This document shows, piece after piece, positions 2,898 through 64,000 of a stretch of DNA of 64,000 nt. A program made the translations under genes and the position numbers. Origin of the DNA: Actinopolyspora xinjiangensis (GTDB taxonomy: Bacteria > Actinomycetota > Actinomycetes > Mycobacteriales > Pseudonocardiaceae); assembly GCF_900104475.1 (NCBI RefSeq), contig NZ_FNJR01000006.1, positions 62,001 to 126,000 on the forward strand, read 5' to 3'. The notes beneath the pieces are model-generated. The model was not told the origin of the DNA and did not search any database. It saw only the letters and a program-made list of their open reading frames with translations. Every line of letters begins with the position of its first letter. Within the stretch, counting starts at the first letter, position 1.

Positions 2898-3260
2898 GGA
2901 TCACCTCGTTGATCGTCGTCGGGTAGGGACCGGGTCGTGCCCGTGCGGCGCCCGGAATCAATCATGCCGGAATGAAATCACGCTGCGGTACTGCTCCGCG
3001 CGTGGGCACGTACGTCCCCCGCCGGTGGATGGGGACGTTGCGCCCCAGGGGTACGGCGTCGGGAGCTGTGTTCGGAACCGCCGGTCGCGGTGTCCCGAGC
3101 CGCGCGCAGCTGACCGATCGGGTGAGTGAATCCCTCCGCCGGAGGGCGTCCGGTTCACGCTCCCGGACCGGGAAATCGACGGCTGCCGGGAACACAGCGC
3201 CCTCCTCGGGTGGTTGACCCATCGGAACCGTGACCACACGTGACGACGGAAGGCGTGTTG
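2898..3260. other. Divergent intergenic region pepN / DsbA-like
   Basis: About 360 nt without a credible gene. It must hold the promoters of both divergent genes. No good -35/-10 pair could be assigned. A short ACGTACGT palindrome lies near 3008. ORFs across it are GC-rich shadows. Confidence 0.5.
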
Positions 3261-3884
3261 ATGAGCACCGACAGCCAGCAGAGGAAGCCGGAAGTCTACT
3301 TCTACTTCGACCCCATCTGCCCCTTCGCCTGGGTCTCGTCCCGTTGGATGCTCGAGGTCGAGCAGGTTCGCGACATCGACCTGCGGTTTCGCGTCATGAG
3401 CCTGGCCGTGCTCAACTCCGGGCGCGAACTCGGCGAGCAGTACGACGAGATGATGCAGCGGGCCTGGAAGCCGGTGCGTGTCGCGATAGCGGCGGCCGAG
3501 CAGCACGGCGACGAGGTGCTGTCACCGCTCTACACCGCGATGGGGACCCGGTTCCACGACAACGGGGACAAGGACTTCGATCGGGTGATCGCGGAGTCCC
3601 TGGAGGAGGTCGGGCTGCCCGATTCGCTCGCCAAGGCGGCGAACAGCGACGAGTACGACGAGCGGCTGCGTGCCAGTCACCACGCGGGTATGGACCCGGT
3701 GGGGGACGAGGTGGGGACGCCGACCATCCACGTCGACGGTGTGGCGTTCTTCGGCCCGATCACGACCCGCATCCCGCGTGGGGAGCAGGCGGGCGAGTTG
3801 TTCGACGCCGCGCGCACGCTGGCGGGTTATCCGTACTTCTTCGAGCTCAAGCGGACCCGTACGGAGGCCCCTCGCTTCGACTGA
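3261..3884 (+). CDS. DsbA-family, mycothiol-dependent nitroreductase-like protein
   Basis: A 207-residue thioredoxin-fold protein closely resembling my recollection of M. tuberculosis Rv2466c, a mycothiol-dependent reductase. Shared blocks include the N-terminal FDPxCP active-site loop followed by SRW, the MSLAVLN block, and [10 protein letters not shown] with the cis-proline. The active site reads C20-P-F-A23 where Rv2466c has CPWC, so the resolving cysteine is replaced by alanine and only the nucleophilic cysteine remains. That suggests a monothiol mechanism using mycothiol (inference). The ATG at 3261 is preferred over an in-frame GTG at 3240 because GGAAGG sits about 8 nt upstream. Its place beside pepN supports orthology. 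Confidence 0.88.
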
Positions 3885-3897
3885 TCGCGGTTTCCGT

Positions 3898-3923
3898 GAC
3901 GCGAACGTCCCGACGTTCGCGTC
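3898..3923. terminator. Bidirectional hairpin terminator
   Basis: A perfect 11-bp stem (GACGCGAACGT / ACGTTCGCGTC) with a CCCG tetraloop starts 14 nt after the stop of the DsbA-like gene. The next gene is convergent and ends at 3989, so the hairpin can serve both strands. No T tract. Confidence 0.75.
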
Positions 3924-3988
3924 CCTACGCGTGACCTCGCTCGTGAGTTCCTGCCGGGCACCCGTTCCGATCCGGTCGGCCGGAACGG

Positions 3989-4738
3989 TCAGCGATGGCT
4001 GAACACTCCCGCGTGCAGCCGGGGGGCCGTCGAACTGGCGTTCCACGCGAGCGCCAGCTCGACATCCCTCTGGTACCCCTGGTCGGTGAGTTCGCGGCCG
4101 GATACGCACTCCCGTACCTCGCGCGCGAAGTCGTCGGACGCCTCGTAGGCGCGCGCGGCCATCCCCGCCTCGACCGAACGAGCGGAAACCGGCACGGGCA
4201 GCGCCGAGATTATCGCTCCGGCCCCGATCAGGTCCTCCGCCGCGAGGCGTAGCGACCCGTCGGCGCGACGCTCACCAGCCGCGATCACGCCGACCGGGCC
4301 GTTGTGGGCCGCCGAACCCGCTGCCGCCGCGACCGCGGCGGCATTGCGCAGGCAGCCGGTGAACACCACCGCGCCCAATCCGGCCGCCTCCGAGCACAGC
4401 GTCGCCCCGTTGGGGGAGGGAAGACCGATGAGCGTGCCGGTGGGCGCGTTCGCCAACGAAGCCGGACTCAACGAATACCCTCCGCTGCCCCGGTCACCCG
4501 CGAGCACCGCACCGGCCGCCGACGCGGCATCACCGGCCCGGTCGTCCCGGTAGGGGAGCGGAAGCACGTGGGCGCCCGCGGCCGTCGTCACGTCCACTGC
4601 CGTGGCGAAGGAGAGCACGTCCACCACCACCAGCACGGCGCACTGCTCCCCGAGAGAGCGAAGGCCCTCCAGCCCCCATTCGAACCTCACCGCGTGATCG
4701 GATTGCGCGGCCGGTGACATCACTTGTTCGTGTGGCAT
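3989..4738 (-). CDS. 2-phosphosulfolactate phosphatase family (ComB-like)
   Basis: A 249-residue protein with the ComB family layout: VVVDVLSFATAVD near the N-terminus, SPNGATLC in the middle, then GCLRNA and VIAAGERR. In archaea ComB dephosphorylates 2-phosphosulfolactate for coenzyme M synthesis. Actinobacteria do not make coenzyme M, so the true substrate here is unknown and the family name should not be read as function. The ATG at 4738 is preferred because AAGGG lies 6 nt upstream, whereas it abuts the alternative ATG at 4744. It is divergent from rpiB with a gap of only 56 nt. Confidence 0.8.
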   Translation of the reverse strand: MPHEQVMSPAAQSDHAVRFEWGLEGLRSLGEQCAVLVVVDVLSFATAVDVTTAAGAHVLPLPYRDDRAGDAASAAGAVLAGDRGSGGYSLSPASLANAPTGTLIGLPSPNGATLCSEAAGLGAVVFTGCLRNAAAVAAAAGSAAHNGPVGVIAAGERRADGSLRLAAEDLIGAGAIISALPVPVSARSVEAGMAARAYEASDDFAREVRECVSGRELTDQGYQRDVELALAWNASSTAPRLHAGVFSHR

Positions 4739-4782
4739 GTCCATCCCTTGACCGGGTGAGCAATGTACGCGAAGCGATTTGG

Positions 4783-4788
4783 CAGACT
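4783..4788 (+). promoter_or_regulatory. Putative -10 of leaderless rpiB
   Basis: CAGACT lies exactly 6 nt before the GTG start of rpiB, which has no Shine-Dalgarno sequence. The spacing matches other leaderless starts in this window. No clear -35 is visible. Confidence 0.4.
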
Positions 4789-4794
4789 ACACGT

Positions 4795-5265
4795 GTGCGC
4801 GTCTATCTTGGTTCCGATCACGCCGGTCTCGAAGTGAAAACACATCTGGTCGAACGCCTCGGCCGTCTCGGTTACGAGGTGGTCGACGTGGGCCCCGCCG
4901 TCTACGACGCCGAGGACGACTACCCCCCGTTCTGCGTGGAGGCCGCCCGCCGTGTGGTGGCCGACGCGGGCAGTCTGGGCCTGGTTCTCGGGGGTTCCGG
5001 CAACGGGGAGCAGATCGCGGCCAACAAGGTTCCCGGGGCGCGGGCGGCTCTGGTCTGGAACCAGGACACTGCGAAGCTCTCCCGGCAGCACAACAACGCT
5101 CTGCTCGCGGGGATCGGCGCCCGGATGCACAGCCTCGACGAGATCGACGGAATCGTCGACACCTTCCTGACCACCGAGTTCGAGGGAGGCAGGCACCAGC
5201 GCCGGATCGACATGCTGGCCGACTACGAGCGGACCGGAGAGCCCCCGGCACTGCCCGAGCGGTGA
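4795..5265 (+). CDS. rpiB: Ribose-5-phosphate isomerase B
   Basis: Interconverts ribose-5-phosphate and ribulose-5-phosphate in the pentose phosphate pathway. The 156-residue protein starts with the family signature RVYLGSDHAG, carries the catalytic loop GGSGNGEQIAANKV and ends with the HQRRIDMLADYE block. Glu72 in NGEQ matches the base of the mycobacterial enzyme (Glu75 in M. tuberculosis), which uses glutamate where other RpiB proteins use cysteine (recalled). The GTG at 4795 is chosen because family homology begins there. There is no ribosome-binding site and a -10-like hexamer lies 6 nt upstream, so translation is probably leaderless. It is upstream of nei, as in M. tuberculosis. Confidence 0.95.
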   Translation: MRVYLGSDHAGLEVKTHLVERLGRLGYEVVDVGPAVYDAEDDYPPFCVEAARRVVADAGSLGLVLGGSGNGEQIAANKVPGARAALVWNQDTAKLSRQHNNALLAGIGARMHSLDEIDGIVDTFLTTEFEGGRHQRRIDMLADYERTGEPPALPER

Positions 5266-5386
5266 CCGCGTCGCCCGCCCCGGTTCCAGCGACCGCCGAT
5301 CGTGGGGGTGGGTGCTCGGTGTCGGCGGTCGAACGGGAAGCGTTCGTGCCGCCGGGGCCGGTCCGGTGGTTGTGAGGGGAGGTTCG

Positions 5387-6193
5387 GTGCCGGAAGGACA
5401 CATCGTGCATCGGCTCGCCGAGCTGCATCGGCGTCGTTTCGCGGGTGAGCCGGTCCGGGTGGGGAGCCCGCAAGGACGGTTCACCGCCGCCGTGGAACTC
5501 GACGGCGCCGTGTTTCGTGACGCCCAGGCCCACGGCAAGCACCTGTGGCACCGCTACGGCACCGACCGCGTGGTGCACGTCCACCTGGGGCTGTACGGCA
5601 AGTTCACCGAAGCGCCCGTGCCGCTCGGGCAACCACGTGGCAAGGTCCGCATGCGCCTGGTGGGACCCACGCACGGGACCGACCTGCGTGGTCCCGCCGC
5701 CTGTGAGCTGCTGACCGAGGAGGAGCTGGCGCGGCTGCGCGCCCGGTTGGGCCCCGACCCGCTGCGCTCCGACGCCGATCCGGAGGCCGCGTGGCAGCGG
5801 GTGACTCGCTCGCGCTCCGCCGTCGCGGCGCTGTTGATGGACCAGTCCGTGCTTTCCGGCGTCGGCAACGCCTACCGGGCGGAAGTGCTGTTCCGGTGGG
5901 GAGTTCCGCCCCGCCTACCGGGGCACTCGTTACCCCGGCGGCACTGGGACGCGATCTGGGACGATCTGGTCGCACTGATGTCGGAGGGGGTCCGTACCGG
6001 ACGCATCGACACCGTGCGCGAGGAGCACTCCCCCGAGGTGACCGGACGGGAGCCCAGAAACGACCGCCACGGCGGTGAGGTCTACGTCTACCGGCGTGCC
6101 GGTGCCGCGTGCCTGGTTTGTTCCACACCGGTCGCCACCGCCGAGCTGCTCGGCCGCAAGCTCTACTGGTGCCCCCGGTGCCAGCGGGAGTGA
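5387..6193 (+). CDS. nei: Fpg/Nei-family DNA glycosylase (endonuclease VIII)
   Basis: Base-excision repair glycosylase/AP lyase that removes oxidised pyrimidines. The 268-residue protein begins PEGHIVHRL, which after Met removal gives the catalytic Pro2-Glu3 pair of the family. A helix-two-turn-helix region lies around residues 150-200 (SVLSGVGNAYRAEVLF), and a C-terminal zinc finger uses Cys242, Cys245, Cys262 and Cys265. The PEGH start and position next to rpiB point to Nei1 (Rv2464c-like) rather than Fpg. The GTG at 5387 follows a strong GAGGGGAGG ribosome-binding site. An in-frame start at 5312 is rejected because it would bury the catalytic proline. Confidence 0.94.
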   Translation: MPEGHIVHRLAELHRRRFAGEPVRVGSPQGRFTAAVELDGAVFRDAQAHGKHLWHRYGTDRVVHVHLGLYGKFTEAPVPLGQPRGKVRMRLVGPTHGTDLRGPAACELLTEEELARLRARLGPDPLRSDADPEAAWQRVTRSRSAVAALLMDQSVLSGVGNAYRAEVLFRWGVPPRLPGHSLPRRHWDAIWDDLVALMSEGVRTGRIDTVREEHSPEVTGREPRNDRHGGEVYVYRRAGAACLVCSTPVATAELLGRKLYWCPRCQRE

Positions 6194-6350
6194 GCCGTCC
6201 GACACTCGACTCGTTCGCCGCGTCGGTTCCCGAGCCCCACCTCCGGGGGCGTCGGATCGGCGTCCCCCGACAGGCACGGGCCGAGCGGCCCCAGCGGTGC
6301 CCTTACTGAGGGAGAAGCCCCCTTCCACGGGTTCCGGCCGACCCGCCGAC

Positions 6351-6380
6351 GCGGCCGTGCGGTTCGGACCGCACGGCCGC
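6351..6380. terminator. Strong bidirectional hairpin terminator
   Basis: A perfect 13-bp stem, GCGGCCGTGCGGT pairing with ACCGCACGGCCGC, closes a TCGG tetraloop. It lies between the convergent nei and 2H phosphoesterase-like genes, ending 6 nt before the latter's stop. The palindrome works on either strand. Confidence 0.8.
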
Positions 6381-6385
6381 ACCCG

Positions 6386-7009
6386 TCAGCCCGAGAGCTC
6401 GACCTCGCCCAGGACCTCCCACTCGTCGCAGGCGTGATCCCGGTTCAGTCGTACCAGCGAGATGCTCGGCATCCGCACCGTCGCCGGTTCCGCGCTGGTC
6501 GCCTCCAGTGTCGCCTTCGCGAAGACGGCGGGGCCGTCGGCTGTGGAGAAGGCCAGGCTCACGTGCTGGTCGATCTCCTCGGGGTCGCCGGGCAGTTCCG
6601 CTCCCACCACCGCTCCGGCGGCTTCGCGCAGTCGTGCCCGCAGGTCCGTCAGCGTGGCCTGCGGTTCGGCGGGCAGTGCCAGTGCTTCGGGTAGCACCAG
6701 TCCCCCGTGGAACGTCAACGACAGCGGTGCGAAGGAGGACAGGTGCCGTCGGGCGGCCTCCAGCAGTGCTTCCACCCGTCCCTGCGGAGCCTCGTCGTGG
6801 AATCCGTTCTCCTGCAGCAGGATGTGCATCCACTCCAGCGGGACGGGGTCGAAACCGGGCAGGTCACGTAGCGAATACTGGTACTGGTTGGCCAGCCTGC
6901 GCAGCTCCGGCTGATCACCGAGCGGTAGCAACCAGGCCAGGCTGCTACGGCCGGAGGACCATCCCTGGCGCCAGCGTGCGTGTTTGCGGACCTGGTCTGC
7001 GTGTGGCAT
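6386..7009 (-). CDS. 2H phosphoesterase / 2'-5' RNA ligase-like protein
   Basis: A 207-residue protein resembling the LigT/2H phosphoesterase superfamily of actinobacteria. The two half-motifs are probably MHILLQ (about residue 55) and QHVSLAF (about residue 150). The second fits the H-x-S/T consensus. The first keeps the histidine but has leucine where threonine is expected, so activity is uncertain. Members act on cyclic phosphodiesters or RNA ends, but the substrate here is unknown. The ATG at 7009 has GGAG 8 nt upstream. An upstream in-frame ATG at 7033 lacks a ribosome-binding site. A small gap separates it from the MFS gene on the same strand. Confidence 0.65.
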   Translation of the reverse strand: MPHADQVRKHARWRQGWSSGRSSLAWLLPLGDQPELRRLANQYQYSLRDLPGFDPVPLEWMHILLQENGFHDEAPQGRVEALLEAARRHLSSFAPLSLTFHGGLVLPEALALPAEPQATLTDLRARLREAAGAVVGAELPGDPEEIDQHVSLAFSTADGPAVFAKATLEATSAEPATVRMPSISLVRLNRDHACDEWEVLGEVELSG

Positions 7010-22404: not shown

Positions 22405-22802
22405 TGCTCTACGTCGACACCTCGGCTGTGCTCAAGCTGGTCCGGCGTGAAAGGGAGACCGACGAGCTGCTCAGCTGGCTCGACGCGCGGCACGATTCCC
22501 CGATCGTGTCCTCGGTGCTGTTGGAGGTCGAGGTTTCCAGAGCACTTCATCGCAACGCGCCCGAATCACTCGATTCCGTGCCCGCTGTTCTCGGACGCAT
22601 CGCCACCTACGAGATCGACGAGTTGGTGCGGGCCACAGCCGCTTCCTACCAGGATCCGAACCTGAGATCGCTCGACGCGATCCATCTGGCCACCGCCGCC
22701 GCGATCTTCCAAGAGCGGCTCAGCGCCTTCGTCACCTATGACAAGCGGCTACTCGCCGCGGCGGACGCTTTGGAGTTGCCTACCGCGTGTCCGGGTAGCT
22801 GA
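22404..22802 (+). CDS. VapC-like PIN-domain toxin
   Basis: A 132-residue PIN-domain ribonuclease. The metal-binding acidic residues are in place: Asp5 (MLYVDTSAVLKLV), a glutamate in LLEVEVSRALH, aspartates in LRSLDAIHLATA (near residue 95) and the YDKRL aspartate. VapC toxins cleave tRNA or rRNA. The target here is unknown. Translation is coupled to the upstream antitoxin by a one-base stop-start overlap. The pair sits alone between a conserved-order breakpoint and the MDMPI-like gene, bounded by a short direct repeat. Confidence 0.93.
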   Translation: MLYVDTSAVLKLVRRERETDELLSWLDARHDSPIVSSVLLEVEVSRALHRNAPESLDSVPAVLGRIATYEIDELVRATAASYQDPNLRSLDAIHLATAAAIFQERLSAFVTYDKRLLAAADALELPTACPGS

Positions 22803-28311: not shown

Positions 28312-28584
28312 ATGGCCACTACGAGGACGACGATCACGATAGACGAGCGGTTACTCGGTCAACTCGAATCACGTGCTCTCGAGCAGCAGACCACGGTCAG
28401 CGCGCTGATCGAACAGGATCTTCGTTTCGCCGAGCTGCAGCACGCTCGCATGAGCAGTGAAAGCGGTTCGGAATTCACGCTGCCGAGCTGTGACCTCGGC
28501 GGAGTGCGTCCCGGCGTCGATCTGAACGACAACGCCGCGCTGCTCGACATGATGGAGAACCAGGATTCATCATTTGTGACGTGA
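28312..28584 (+). CDS. VapB-like ribbon-helix-helix antitoxin
   Basis: A 90-residue antitoxin. The N-terminus (MATTRTTITIDERLLGQLESR, then QTTVSALIEQDL) is a ribbon-helix-helix DNA-binding fold. The C-terminus (GVRPGVDLNDNAALLDMME) is the typical toxin-binding tail of VapB. The ATG at 28312 is preferred to 28291 because RHH homology begins there. CATGCT 7 nt upstream may be the -10 of a leaderless start. Its stop lies just inside the first codons of the vapC relic, so the original pair overlapped. With the toxin broken, this antitoxin may be an orphan. Confidence 0.82.
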   Translation: MATTRTTITIDERLLGQLESRALEQQTTVSALIEQDLRFAELQHARMSSESGSEFTLPSCDLGGVRPGVDLNDNAALLDMMENQDSSFVT

Positions 28585-28994
28585 ACGTTCTGGTCAACTC
28601 GCAGAACGTCTCATTCGCCGAGCAACCCGAGTACTATCGTTGATTGCAGGATGCGTTGAACGGTCCGGTGCCGCTGGGCATACCTTCACTCGTGTTCAGT
28701 GGGTACGTGCGGATCGTGACGAACAAGAAGATCTTCGATCGCCCGCTGTCGGTCGAGTCGGCGCTCGACATGGTCGCCACCATCCGCTCCGAGCCCGCTT
28801 TCGTCCCCGCAGCCCCCGGCCCACGCCACTGGGAGATCTTCACCGAGCTGTGTCGCAAGGCCGAAGCCAAGGGGAATCTCGTTCCGGACGCCTACCTCGC
28901 GGCCATCGCCATCGAGCACGGCTGTGAATGGATTACCGCCGATCGCGGGTTCGCCCGCTACCCTGGACTCCGCTGGCGCCACCCGCTGGACTGA
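28569..28994 (+). pseudogene. vapC toxin disrupted by loss of start and an in-frame UGA
   Basis: In one frame this reads IICDVNVLVN, then AEQPEYYR, a TGA at 28641-28643, and LQDALNGPVPLGIPSLVF on to the end at WRHPLD. The stop falls where VapC relatives have tryptophan (YRRWL; TGG to TGA). No ATG/GTG start remains before the first catalytic Asp: codons there are ATC ATT TGT GAC. The 3' part (TTG at 28644 to 28994, 116 residues) keeps LVPDAYLAAIAIEHGCEWITADRGFARYPG with the C-terminal metal ligands. Any product would lack the first catalytic aspartate, so toxin activity is probably gone. Confidence 0.8.
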
Positions 28995-61012: not shown

Positions 61013-61879
61013 ATGGGGCCGACAGCCTTACTGCTCGTCGTCGTCGCGGCGGCCGCTCACGCGGGTTGGAACTACTTCGCCAAGCGGGTCGCCTCGGGCG
61101 GAGCCGCGTTCGTGTGGCTGACCGCCGCCTGCTCCACCGTGCTGTACCTGCCCCTGGCGGCACTCGTGGTGCTGCGCGCCGGACTGCCGCCGTTGCACGT
61201 CGGCTTGCTGGGGGTCGTCGTCAGCGCCGCTCTGCACCTCGCGTACTTCGTACTGCTGCAGCGGGGCTACGCGGTCGGGGACATGTCCGTGGTCTACCCG
61301 CTCGCGCGGGGGACCGGCCCGCTGCTCGCCCTCCTGATCGCGGTGCTGCTGCTGGACGAGCGCCCCGGCGTCACCGGAGTGGCTGGAGGGCTGCTGGTGG
61401 TGCTCGGAGTGCTGGTGATCACCTCCGGAGGAGGCGACACCCGACCCCGTGCCGGACAGCTGGCCGGGATCGGGTTCGGCTTGCTCACCGGCGGCATGAT
61501 CGCGCTGTACACCGTCTGGGACGCCTACGCGGTCACAGCGCTGGCGCTGTCACCGCTGCTGTTCGACTGGGCCAACCAGCTGGCCCGGGTGGTGCTGTTC
61601 GCGCCGTACGCCTGGGGGAGGAGGGATCGGATCGCCGGTGTCTGGGCGAAGAACCGGCGGGAGGTGGTGCTGGTGGGGTTGTTGTCCCCGTTGGCTTATC
61701 TGCTGGTGTTGTTCGCGATGCGGTTGGCTCCGGTCAGTCTCGTGGCTCCCGCTCGGGAGTTGAGCATCGTGTTGGCGGCTCTGCTGGGGTGGTGGTTGTT
61801 GCGGGAGGGCGATCCCGGGCGGCGGATCGCGGGGTCGGCGGTGGTGGTCAGCGGCGTGGTGCTGCTGGGGATCGCCTGA
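61013..61879 (+). CDS. EamA/DMT family transporter
   Basis: A 288-residue permease with ten predicted hydrophobic helices and two EamA-type halves (AHAGWNYFAKRVASGG and VVYPLARGTGPLLALL in the first; GMIALYTVWDAYAV and APARELSIVLAALLGWWLL in the second). Substrate unknown. GGGGAG precedes the ATG at 61013. The 3' third (from about 61650) uses TTG and GCT codons far more than the rest. Its last 198 bp are duplicated at 63046-63243 beyond a TA module. This suggests replacement or duplication of the gene end by recombination. Confidence 0.88.
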   Translation: MGPTALLLVVVAAAAHAGWNYFAKRVASGGAAFVWLTAACSTVLYLPLAALVVLRAGLPPLHVGLLGVVVSAALHLAYFVLLQRGYAVGDMSVVYPLARGTGPLLALLIAVLLLDERPGVTGVAGGLLVVLGVLVITSGGGDTRPRAGQLAGIGFGLLTGGMIALYTVWDAYAVTALALSPLLFDWANQLARVVLFAPYAWGRRDRIAGVWAKNRREVVLVGLLSPLAYLLVLFAMRLAPVSLVAPARELSIVLAALLGWWLLREGDPGRRIAGSAVVVSGVVLLGIA

Positions 61880-61882
61880 GCG
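61682..61882 (+). repeat. 201-bp direct repeat, left copy (end of EamA gene)
   Basis: Matches 63046-63246 at 200 of 201 positions by direct reading. The single difference is at 61874/63238 (G versus A, changing the last Ala codon to Thr). It covers the last 66 codons of the transporter gene plus the stop and 3 nt. Offset between copies is 1364 bp. Confidence 0.93.
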
Positions 61883-61901
61883 GAGATTCGCCCGTGTGGG
61901 G

Positions 61902-62450
61902 TCACCGTTGGTGGCGCGGGACCTCGGCGGCGAACTTCGGCAGGCCGGTCCGTTCGAGGCGGTTCATCAGGCCCGCGATCGTGGTGGGTTCCCTGGTGTA
62001 CGCGCTGACCTGTCTGTTCAAGCTGGCCATGACCCGTGCCGGATGGAGATCGAGCTGGTCGAGCAGGAACTCGTCGGGGTGTACCGCCTCGATCTCGTAC
62101 GGTTTCAGCGCGTGCTCGGGGAAGTGACGCAGGTTCGCGGTGACGATCACAGCGGCGTTTCCCCGTACGGCGGCCGCCAGCACGTGGCGATCGTCCGCGT
62201 CGTTGGTCATGCTGGGGAGCAAGGACTCGTACCCGGTGACCTCGGCGTCGGTGAAGTGCTGACGCATGTTGCGCAGCCGGTGGTCGGCTTGTGCCGTCGA
62301 CGTCATCCTGGCCAGATTGCGGTGCAGCTCCTCGAGTACGTCGGCTGACCACAGTGGACGATATATCTCCGCCGAGGCCAGCCGCAACAGGGTGTCGTTG
62401 AGATACCCGGGAACGAGTACGCACGTGTCCAGGAAGGCGGGGAAGGACAC
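61902..62450 (-). CDS. PIN-domain toxin (VapC-like)
   Basis: A 182-residue PIN protein: SFPAFLDTCVLVPGYL with Asp8, SADVLEELHRNLARM carrying an acidic residue, NDADDRHVLAAAVRG and VTANLRHFPEHALKPY. A C-terminal extension of about 50 residues follows the PIN core. It is encoded after an HTH antitoxin with an 8-nt gap, forming a TA operon. The GTG at 62450 is supported by AGGAG. The target RNA is unknown. Confidence 0.88.
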   Translation of the reverse strand: MSFPAFLDTCVLVPGYLNDTLLRLASAEIYRPLWSADVLEELHRNLARMTSTAQADHRLRNMRQHFTDAEVTGYESLLPSMTNDADDRHVLAAAVRGNAAVIVTANLRHFPEHALKPYEIEAVHPDEFLLDQLDLHPARVMASLNRQVSAYTREPTTIAGLMNRLERTGLPKFAAEVPRHQR

Positions 62451-62458
62451 CGAGGCTC

Positions 62459-62938
62459 CTATTCCTGTGGTAGCGGGCGCAGGGTGTCTTCGTAGAAACC
62501 GGTTTCCTGACCGGCCGCGGCCATCTCGTCGAGCGCTTCCTCCCGCTCTTGCCACGTGCGGTGCTGGTAGGCCACGACGTCTTTCAGACGCATCTTCCGG
62601 TGACGACCGTGGCGCACGTAGGGGATCTCGCCCGCCTCGAGCCGTTTGATCAGCGTCGGTCGTGAGATCCCCAGCAGGTCGGCCGCCTCCTGGGTGGTGA
62701 GCATCGTGTTGTGCGGAGCCACCGTGATGGCCAGTCCTTGCGACATCGCGCTGACGACATCGCGCAGAGCCTGGAACACGGGGCCGGGCAACTCCAGCTC
62801 GCTGCCGTCCGGCCCCAGCAGCACCGCGTGCCCGCCTTGCTGCTCGGTGGCGAGTTGCTTGGCCAACACGCCAAGCAGGTTCTGCTCCTCGTCCGCGTCC
62901 GGAGGCAACACGGTCTGTTCCTGCATCGTCGCGGTCAC
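62459..62938 (-). CDS. HTH (excisionase-like) antitoxin
   Basis: A 159-residue protein. Its C-terminal half is an excisionase/MerR-like helix-turn-helix (MLTTQEAADLLGISRPTLIKRL, then GEIPYVRHGRHRKMRLKDV). The N-terminal half is acidic and helical. The gene precedes a PIN toxin, a known antitoxin arrangement in actinobacteria. The GTG at 62938 follows GGGAGGG by 8 nt. The operon's promoter region holds an interrupted palindrome at 63012-63026. Confidence 0.85.
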   Translation of the reverse strand: MTATMQEQTVLPPDADEEQNLLGVLAKQLATEQQGGHAVLLGPDGSELELPGPVFQALRDVVSAMSQGLAITVAPHNTMLTTQEAADLLGISRPTLIKRLEAGEIPYVRHGRHRKMRLKDVVAYQHRTWQEREEALDEMAAAGQETGFYEDTLRPLPQE

Positions 62939-62997
62939 GGGTCGACCCTCCCTCGATGCACAGGCCCGCGAAGGCCACTCGTTCCCTGGTGGACGCC

Positions 62998-63026
62998 AGT
63001 CTACACACCTGTTCGAAAAACTCGAA
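62998..63026 (-). promoter_or_regulatory. Promoter/operator of the HTH-PIN operon
   Basis: On the minus strand, TAGACT (63003-62998) is a good -10. TTCGAG (63026-63021) lies 17 nt upstream as a weak -35. The palindrome TTCGA-AAAAC-TCGAA (63012-63026, plus strand) overlaps the -35, consistent with autorepression. The region is AT-rich compared with its surroundings. Confidence 0.55.
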
Positions 63027-63045
63027 ACTTCTGGATCTGGCGGAA

Positions 63046-63243
63046 TTGTCCCCGTTGGCTTATCTGCTGGTGTTGTTCGCGATGCGGTTGGCTCCGGTCA
63101 GTCTCGTGGCTCCCGCTCGGGAGTTGAGCATCGTGTTGGCGGCTCTGCTGGGGTGGTGGTTGTTGCGGGAGGGCGATCCCGGGCGGCGGATCGCGGGGTC
63201 GGCGGTGGTGGTCAGCGGCGTGGTGCTGCTGGGGATCACCTGA
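63046..63243 (+). pseudogene. 3' fragment of the EamA transporter gene
   Basis: Duplicate of the end of the EamA gene (61682-61879), in frame to its own stop and ending GIT instead of GIA. It lacks the first 222 codons. An ATG at 62956 would prepend unrelated residues, but there is no sign it is expressed. It marks the right border of the TA insertion. Confidence 0.85.
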
Positions 63244-63246
63244 GCG
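63046..63246 (+). repeat. 201-bp direct repeat, right copy
   Basis: Right copy of the repeat at 61682-61882. Together they bracket 1163 bp holding the HTH-PIN operon. No integrase, transposase or terminal inverted repeats are present in the bracketed DNA. Confidence 0.93.
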
Positions 63247-63405
63247 ACCCGCGTTCCGGAGGCCCCGGCTCCCGCCAATCTCACGGGGAATCTACGTCCG
63301 GGACACGTGGGTGAGGTGGCGCTGTCCTGGTGATTTCGTGGGAGATCGACACCGCCGGGGGACGCGTGCTCGGCGATTCCGGACGCGATCGGGTAGGACG
63401 GGGGC

Positions 63406-63789
63406 ATGGAGGTTCTCAGTAGCAGGATGATTCTGCGCCCCCGTGACCACGACCGTTCCGTCCGGTTCTACCGCGACACGCTCGGGCTGGCGATCCACCG
63501 CGAGTTTCCCGGCGGCACCGTGTTCTTTCTCGGACAAGGGCTGCTGGAGGTCTCCGGCACCGGCAGCAGCGGCCCCAGCCAGGACCAGATGCTCTGGCTG
63601 CAGGTGCGCGACGTCGCCGAGAGCGTTCGTCAGCTGCGCGAGCGCGGTGTGGAGGTGCTCGCCGAACCCGAGCACCGGCCGTGGGGGCTGATCGAGGGCA
63701 CCGTGGCCGATCCCGACGGGACGCGGCTCGTGCTGGTCGAGGTGCCTGCCGAACATCCGCTGCGCGGTGACGTTCGCCAGCATCGCTGA
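63406..63789 (+). CDS. VOC (glyoxalase/bleomycin-resistance) family protein
   Basis: A 127-residue vicinal-oxygen-chelate fold protein: LRPRDHDRSVRFYRDTLGLAI, FFLGQGLLEV, MLWLQVRDVAESVRQL and VADPDGTRLVLVE. The pattern of one metal-ligand position per module is visible but not enough to predict substrate. GGACGGGGG precedes the ATG at 63406. It stands alone after the repeat, and no conserved neighbour could be recognised. Confidence 0.88.
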   Translation: MEVLSSRMILRPRDHDRSVRFYRDTLGLAIHREFPGGTVFFLGQGLLEVSGTGSSGPSQDQMLWLQVRDVAESVRQLRERGVEVLAEPEHRPWGLIEGTVADPDGTRLVLVEVPAEHPLRGDVRQHR

Positions 63790-63979
63790 GGCCTCGTCCC
63801 CGCGATCCCGGTGGGGAGGACGGGTCTCCCGGCTGCCCACAGCTCGGCCACCACGCGTGGCGGGAGCGGAGGCCGTGTGACCGCATCCCCAGGTTGGGGT
63901 CGGGCATTCCGCACTTTCGTGGGACCATGGGCGCAAGCCCTGCCCGTACGCGAGTCGACATCCCGCGAGGAAGACTTCA

Positions 63980-64000
63980 GTGAGCACCTTCGCAGACACG
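63980..64000 (+). CDS. Start of a gene cut by window edge
   Basis: GTG at 63980 opens MSTFADT and runs off the window. AGGAAG lies 6 nt upstream, a convincing ribosome-binding site. Too few residues are visible to name it. Confidence 0.4.

Follow-up and report, generated by a model that had tools for sequence, protein, structure and literature searches.

In a 64,000-nucleotide (nt) stretch of the Actinopolyspora xinjiangensis genome (positions 62,001 to 126,000 of contig NZ_FNJR01000006.1; the window, for short), an operon predicted to encode a PIN-domain toxin and a helix-turn-helix (HTH) antitoxin lies between two near-identical direct repeats of the 3′ end of a gene for an EamA-family transporter. 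Toxin-antitoxin (TA) modules recur in this kind of setting in actinobacterial genomes, and the EamA locus is one example. We observed duplicated target sequence around modules; thiG and rraA are unoccupied in some genomes; the layout recurs at many genes and is not limited to one TA family; the repeats evolve in concert; and one VapBC module forms a tandem array. Insertion with a long and variable target duplication, followed by exchange between the resulting repeats, probably explains the arrangement.

The repeat in the window is 201 nt long, with a single mismatch (G at 61874, A at 63238) and a spacing of 1364 nt between its copies (Table 1). Recomputing the coordinates reproduced the original prediction, made from the letters of the window, that the final 198 nt of EamA, with 3 nt more, recur on the far side of an HTH-PIN operon with one mismatch in 201. 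Open reading frame (ORF) and family matches agreed with its further statement that only two TA genes and their promoter region, and no recombinase, separate the copies: the family-matching ORFs between them are PIN_3 and HTH_17 only, both on the minus strand with the antitoxin upstream of the toxin, and the ORF and family search of that interval gave no recombinase, transposase or integrase match. Inverted repeats of at least 18 nt that pair the module ends were not found in the window. The toxin ORF matches NCBIfam NF046100 (the RSP_2648 family) with a score under the family cut-off, and the invariant acidic residues of PIN are seen in A1; the DNA-binding domain of the antitoxin (HTH_17, excisionase-type) spans residues 79–125. 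Judged by these domains, the operon would be a type II TA module, with putative toxin and antitoxin activities.

Long spaced repeats are scarce outside TA sites, a background that we measured in the window and 11 other loci (19–20 kb). The pair of EamA ends stands far above chance expectation: it is the sole direct repeat of at least 40 bp and at least 85% identity with a spacing of 0.5–6 kb in the window. In the same screen, seven of the 11 other loci had exactly one pair, each around a related module, and four had none, among them L023, where a related module lacks the repeat.

Ten genomes of the genus Actinopolyspora (G000 to G009), the window's genome included, were searched for the locus. 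A sister species assembled as a single contig (G003) shares the EamA insertion, with 94% identity over the whole region, homologous junctions on both sides and equal spacing of the copies, although its toxin ORF is frameshifted after roughly residue 48. The two copies differ at 1 of 201 positions in the window and at 1 of 194 in G003, whereas copies from different species differ at 11–13 of 194. Since the differences within a genome are far below those between species, the copies exchange sequence inside each genome; independently evolving copies of a single old insertion would show the opposite pattern. These counts indicate that the near identity of the copies is due to gene conversion, by which they are homogenised within each genome. 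The insertion itself is not recent, because it is older than the split of two species that are about 94% identical at the locus. Of the two sources of near identity that had been proposed at the outset, conversion is borne out and a recent event is not, as G003 shares the insertion with matching junctions; a strain-level duplication is ruled out on the same ground. Relatives that carry the same arrangement with diverged repeats had been named as a sign against a recent mobile cassette: G003 does carry the arrangement, but its repeats are not diverged within its genome.

An empty EamA site had also been sought in relatives. No intact one was found in the genus, in which the eight other genomes without the module have EamA degraded or absent. 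At the unfilled EamA locus of G004, some 105 nt of the EamA 3′ end survive with 81% identity, and since they are present without a module, the 3′ end is native to the site; we therefore rejected delivery of the EamA 3′ end by the element. The EamA remnants of G001 (L012) and G008 (L013) stop at the equivalents of 61698 and 61683, the start of the window repeat. We did not accept them as an ancestral empty site: EamA carries other deletions there, and the agreement may be coincidence or an old scar.

Empty sites are seen for the related modules. Operon homologues occupy rraA in G002 and G004, each between copies of the rraA 3′ end (251 bp, 98.4% identical, and 99 bp, 99.0%, respectively). A second subfamily lies at thiG in G001, G003, G007 and G008, between copies of the thiG 3′ end (111 bp, 94.6%; 94 bp, 97.9%; 96 bp, 95.8%; and 254 bp, 98.8%, in that order); RraA was identified via NCBIfam and ThiG via Pfam. 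In six of the ten genomes (G000, G002, G004, G005, G006 and G009), thiG has no module and its one copy runs into a native convergent gene. The same gene follows the orphan thiG copy in G001, G003 and G007 and has been lost in G008. Likewise, in the eight genomes where rraA lacks a module, a single copy is joined to the native flank. Differences again fall within genomes far less than between them: over the 99 columns shared by the rraA copies there are 0 and 1 within a genome versus 5–6 between G002 and G004 (5 of 250 for the G002 copies over their full length), and over the final 94 nt of thiG there are 0–4 within versus 9–15 between genomes in five of six genome pairs. The antitoxin-side junction at rraA is identical in G002 and G004, so we regard these as one insertion whose orphan copy has decayed unequally.

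The targets are unrelated genes, and the duplications range from about 25 to 342 bp across sites. Nine targets duplicated at the 3′ end could be named: EamA, rraA, thiG, DUF397, a histidine kinase, an NAD-binding protein, a major facilitator superfamily (MFS) transporter, an aminotransferase-fold enzyme (presumably kbl, with a repeat of just 25 bp) and a metallo-beta-lactamase-fold protein. At an NHL/thioredoxin gene the 5′ end is duplicated instead, and the gene is again whole on one side.

The repeats are not confined to the PIN_3/HTH_17 family. In a control search of the genus with VapC-type PINs (PF01850) and ParE, 7 of 32 loci had a flanking direct repeat of at least 38 bits, some of them weak (26–62 bp) and two being parts of one array; the idea that repeats mark only the PIN_3/HTH_17 family was rejected, since VapC-type loci in the genus are also repeat-flanked. 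The array lies in the single-contig genome G007 (L334, G007:C1:3046000-3056000, at 2919–6610) and consists of three 1180-bp units and four 152-bp repeats in the layout R-TA-R-TA-R-TA-R, each pair being a PIN toxin and a FitA-like ribbon-helix-helix antitoxin. The repeat R is the bulk of a DUF397 gene and ends 2 nt past its stop codon. The units are 99.85–100% identical, the first repeat is in an intact DUF397 gene and the last meets a different flank. As this is the layout expected from unequal crossing-over, recombination between such copies is real, although the array was found for the VapBC module in G007 and not for the module of the window. In G003, a VapC-type PIN gene and a YunG-like ORF (no antitoxin was identified) are bracketed by a duplicated NHL/thioredoxin 5′ end (178-bp copies, 90.4%); the protein of this gene is 64–68% identical to that of the gene used by PIN_3 modules of Lentzea, Saccharothrix and others. 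Because PF01850 and PIN_3 families use homologous 5′ ends in different genera, these form a shared insertion hotspot. Duplicated NHL/thioredoxin 5′ ends were noted at L335, L338 and L347 and at L116, L121, L124, L132 and L133.

Beyond the genus, an antitoxin homologue (E 1e-15) is present in 113 of 297 genomes of the family. For 69 family loci (the window, eight genus loci and 60 further stretches, a subset of the matches listed), the 2 kb before the antitoxin were compared with the 2.8 kb after it. A direct repeat of at least 50 bits flanked 19 of the 69, versus 5 of 600 mismatched left-right pairs, and three of these five control matches pair loci that are both at the same NHL/thioredoxin gene. 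Nearly all of the repeats (18 of 19) are directly beside the module, at most 500 nt from the antitoxin start and at most 900 nt from its end. In a set of 80 named loci, 20 reached 38 bits versus 5 of 400 mismatched pairs; these 20 comprise seven in genomes from the family set, six that are not adjacent to the module and seven new ones. Examples are a 342-bp repeat (98.5%) in Streptomyces atratus OK807 and an 83-bp repeat (97.6%) in S. griseus, both at a histidine-kinase 3′ end, and a 289-bp repeat (97.2%) at the 3′ end of an NAD-binding protein gene in Microcella alkalica.

A full-length, single-frame PIN match accompanies the antitoxin at 49 of the 69 family loci; at 13 the match is partial (one of these is cut by a contig end) and at seven there is none, although these seven may have other toxins. 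As only 49 loci keep a full-length PIN, antitoxins often outlive their toxins. At the Streptomyces histidine-kinase locus (L238, L244, L241 and L232), two close strains hold differing extra inserts in the interval that separates the TA module from the native neighbour, by eye with substrate-binding and membrane protein-like ORFs in one strain and a Ser/Thr kinase and regulator-like ORFs in the other; since close strains hold different inserts, the site looks like a hotspot. Relatives of the PIN toxin occur in 213 plasmid records (less than 60% identical among the 20 matches listed), three phage records and 53 viral contigs, two of which have flanking repeats. A phage or plasmid origin was rejected, as none of these relatives is close. 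On one 54-kb viral contig (L252), a PIN/partner pair lies between 86-bp repeats (89.5%; 2015–2099 and 3779–3864), one of them near the 3′ end of an ORF that we take to be integrase-like. Among solved structures there was no match at E 0.01.

Table 1. Features of the EamA locus, in window coordinates
Feature	Position	Strand	Basis
EamA-family transporter gene, the target; intact, 288 amino acids (aa)	61013..61879	+	ORF; PF00892, E 1.3e-16
Repeat copy 1: final 198 nt of EamA plus 3 nt, part of the intact gene	61682..61882	+	
PIN-domain toxin ORF (putative), PIN_3; about 182 aa from a presumed GTG start	61902..62450	-	PF13470, E 3.4e-13
Antitoxin ORF (putative), 159 aa; HTH_17, excisionase-type (MerR-like)	62459..62938	-	PF12728, E 4.7e-13; TIGR01764
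Operon upstream region (about 107 bp); putative promoter/operator and module edge	62939..63045	-	
Repeat copy 2: orphan EamA 3′ end; beyond it, the intergenic stretch leading to the glyoxalase-family gene	63046..63246	+	
Glyoxalase-family gene, native downstream neighbour	63406..63789	+	PF00903

The flank beyond the second copy is shared throughout the genus: the stretch 63300–64000 is matched in 10 of 10 genomes, and the glyoxalase-family gene is also downstream of the EamA locus in relatives. On the antitoxin side, homology between three insertion sites stops near 63042, and an inverted repeat in the operon upstream region (TTCGA-n5-TCGAA, 63012–63026) is similar at three different sites. 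By eye, the final 200 nt of EamA (61660–61879) are richer in TTG codons than the remaining gene. The window holds two more PIN (VapC-like) matches, at 22410–22763 and 28575–28967, both on the plus strand and the second with an in-frame TGA; the repeat screen of the window gave no long flanking repeats for either.

The following course of events is the one that we prefer. Two openings some 200 bp from each other, the first within EamA and the second shortly after its stop codon, would in effect have been made in the target and the module joined between them, which would leave the intervening stretch on both sides, the gene whole and an orphan end beyond the module. The copies would then exchange sequence by gene conversion and so stay near-identical even though the insertion is old, and crossing-over between them would either remove the module cleanly or expand it into (repeat-TA)n-repeat. 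The original prediction that recombination between the copies would leave the transporter intact is supported by computing the product of a single crossover, which restores the intact 288-codon EamA gene. Deletion would be opposed by post-segregational killing; addiction modules are usually credited with killing cells from which they have been lost. It is plausible that the arrangement is self-stabilising.

Our favoured guess at how the module entered, held tentatively, is that a staggered break was repaired by end joining and captured the module. Repair of such a break fits better than transposition or site-specific integration because there is no recombinase, there are no inverted repeats of at least 18 nt, the duplications are variable and the targets are unrelated; Ku is encoded in all ten genomes of the genus. 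A wider proposal, rather doubtful at present, is that TA modules in general are mobile elements of a minimal kind that need no recombinase. On this proposal, insertion would duplicate a host gene end at no cost to the host gene; the duplicated end, kept identical by gene conversion, would permit clean exit, multiplication in place and re-entry into that gene elsewhere while addiction opposes loss, and repeats and toxin would make up one self-maintaining system.

Several findings weigh against insertion with target duplication followed by exchange, or complicate it. The inner edge of the duplication is within -3 to +24 nt of the stop codon at all nine identified 3′-end targets, and the chance of nine randomly placed stops falling within 27 nt is about 7e-7, a rough figure that omits six loci without a named target. 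Random breaks would not by themselves predict this clustering: either gene-breaking insertions were weeded out and non-coding edges then eroded, or insertion prefers gene borders. The six loci (L091, L109, L187, L213, L222 and L227) bear repeats, and their target genes lack a confident identity. No repeat was found at 50 of the 69 family loci (at 50 bits) or at 60 of the 80 named loci (at 38 bits), and the G009 module, which has a truncated PIN, also lacks one. We assume that the repeat-free homologues have decayed; a tie between repeat loss and a broken toxin was considered and set aside, as no relation was apparent by eye over the 69 loci. Loci that share an insertion site are not independent, and 15 of the 69 are near one NHL/thioredoxin gene. 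The G001/G008 pair at thiG gives no sign of conversion (0–4 differences within, 3–4 between), although these genomes are too close to tell, and the rraA cassette has about 130 nt of unexplained sequence past the PIN stop. Finally, on a tree built from three loci (1403 columns), one ancient gain at thiG with three losses costs about the same as several independent gains; shared orientation and a shared gene-side junction would favour one gain with three clean losses.

Of the alternatives to target duplication, the one that fares best, though still improbable, is that the module travels as a small circle with a piece of the target gene, through which one homologous crossover (Campbell-type) integrates it, the repeat being the carried homology. 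Such entry would yield the same structure and could account for how one insertion passes from strain to strain at a given gene; circles would come from crossover between existing repeats, and the VapBC array suggests that such crossovers happen. However, with many unrelated target genes a fresh gene piece would be needed each time, no free circle was seen, and the plasmid PIN relatives (213 records, not screened for repeats) are less than 60% identical among those listed. The variety of target genes and the presence of some 5′-end duplications also speak against the initial suggestion of a cassette that brings along the 3′ end of its target and uses homologous recombination to integrate, at least as a general mechanism; its other half, a recombinase-free cassette, is supported by related modules between copies of other genes.

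Many integrases favour gene 3′ ends and restore the gene that they enter. The module could be an integrative element that is not autonomous and relies for its movement on a recombinase supplied in trans by the host or a phage, with gene ends serving as attachment sites; the antitoxin HTH is of the excisionase type, and the near-common point upstream of the antitoxin at which homology between the three sites ends would fit. Yet there is no recombinase between the copies in the window (wider flanks and genomes were not searched), the targets include unrelated genes and one gene 5′ end, and variable duplications of 25–342 bp are unlike recombinase core sites, and we consider such mobilisation very unlikely. 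Very little probability also attaches to the possibility that the TA genes inserted without any duplication, and that a later tandem duplication of gene end and module was followed by loss of one module: the VapBC array does show that duplications of repeat plus module occur, but two precise events would be needed at each of many sites, and native sequence soon resumes past the thiG orphans of G001, G003 and G007, where no trace of a second module was seen. An assembly artefact, a concern raised with the original prediction, is ruled out for practical purposes: the window's genome is a draft (5,036,579 bases, 33 contigs), but the locus is interior to a 279,622-bp contig, single-contig G003 has the same structure, module-flanking repeats occur at other genes in independent assemblies, and the VapBC array lies in single-contig G007.

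The spread between sites of chromosomal TA modules that lack a transposase has long been an open question. It becomes testable here through the readable scars of their arrival: long target duplications, sister species with unoccupied sites, repeats that have been homogenised and, for one module, a tandem array. These suggest that the modules can insert with no transposase and no damage to the host gene, and that both copies then serve for recombination. PIN modules with truncated MerR-like antitoxins were predicted previously (Makarova 2009, PMC2701414), and by domain type the pair in the window may be like them: its PIN toxin is paired with an antitoxin whose MerR/excisionase-type HTH matches lie at residues 79–125, behind a putative extra N-terminal part. 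The portion of that article available to us reports TA mobility in general and does not mention flanking repeats (the phrase "direct repeats" occurs 0 times).

The bracketed unit also differs from the usual vehicles of TA modules in that it lacks a transposase or integrase, and mobility appears to reside in the module alone. TA modules commonly ride transposons, plasmids and integrative elements as passengers, gaining from mobility and resisting loss. Unlike a module borne by a transposon or insertion sequence, the unit has no transposase match, no inverted repeats of at least 18 nt at its ends and a duplication of 201 bp. Some integrative elements restore the 3′ end of their target gene; like these, the unit leaves its target intact with the 3′ end on both sides, but unlike them it has no integrase, its repeats are long and variable, and modules of this kind have many targets, a gene 5′ end among them.

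The closest likeness is to restriction-modification (R-M) systems, whose insertion with long variable target duplication was reportedly described by Nobusato in 2000 and Furuta in 2010. In this comparison, TA modules become linked to R-M systems, the sole addiction genes with this mode in the literature searched. Some R-M systems insert with long, variable target duplications of about 100 bp (PMC3874152, as far as its available part goes), and the direct-repeat form left by long and variable duplications can amplify by unequal crossing-over (PMC3031569, likewise from the part available). A full-text literature search (titles and the beginnings of abstracts, among the matches listed, with most subscription papers outside its reach) gave no TA modules inserted with a long target duplication, nor does the available part of PMC3874152 state one for TA modules. 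As with R-M insertions, an addiction module lacking its own recombinase is flanked by a variable duplication of the order of 100 bp (201 bp here, 25–342 bp elsewhere), insertion is recognised by comparing related genomes (empty single-copy sites at thiG in 6 of 10 and at rraA in 8 of 10), and the direct-repeat form would be expected to amplify by unequal crossing-over. The insertion mode is thus one known for R-M systems, here with toxin-antitoxin genes as the unit. Unlike in R-M insertions, the unit consists of PIN_3 and HTH_17 ORFs instead of R-M genes, the duplications mostly end at the stop codon, so that the gene survives, and the repeats show both concerted evolution between species and, in VapBC, an actual tandem array.

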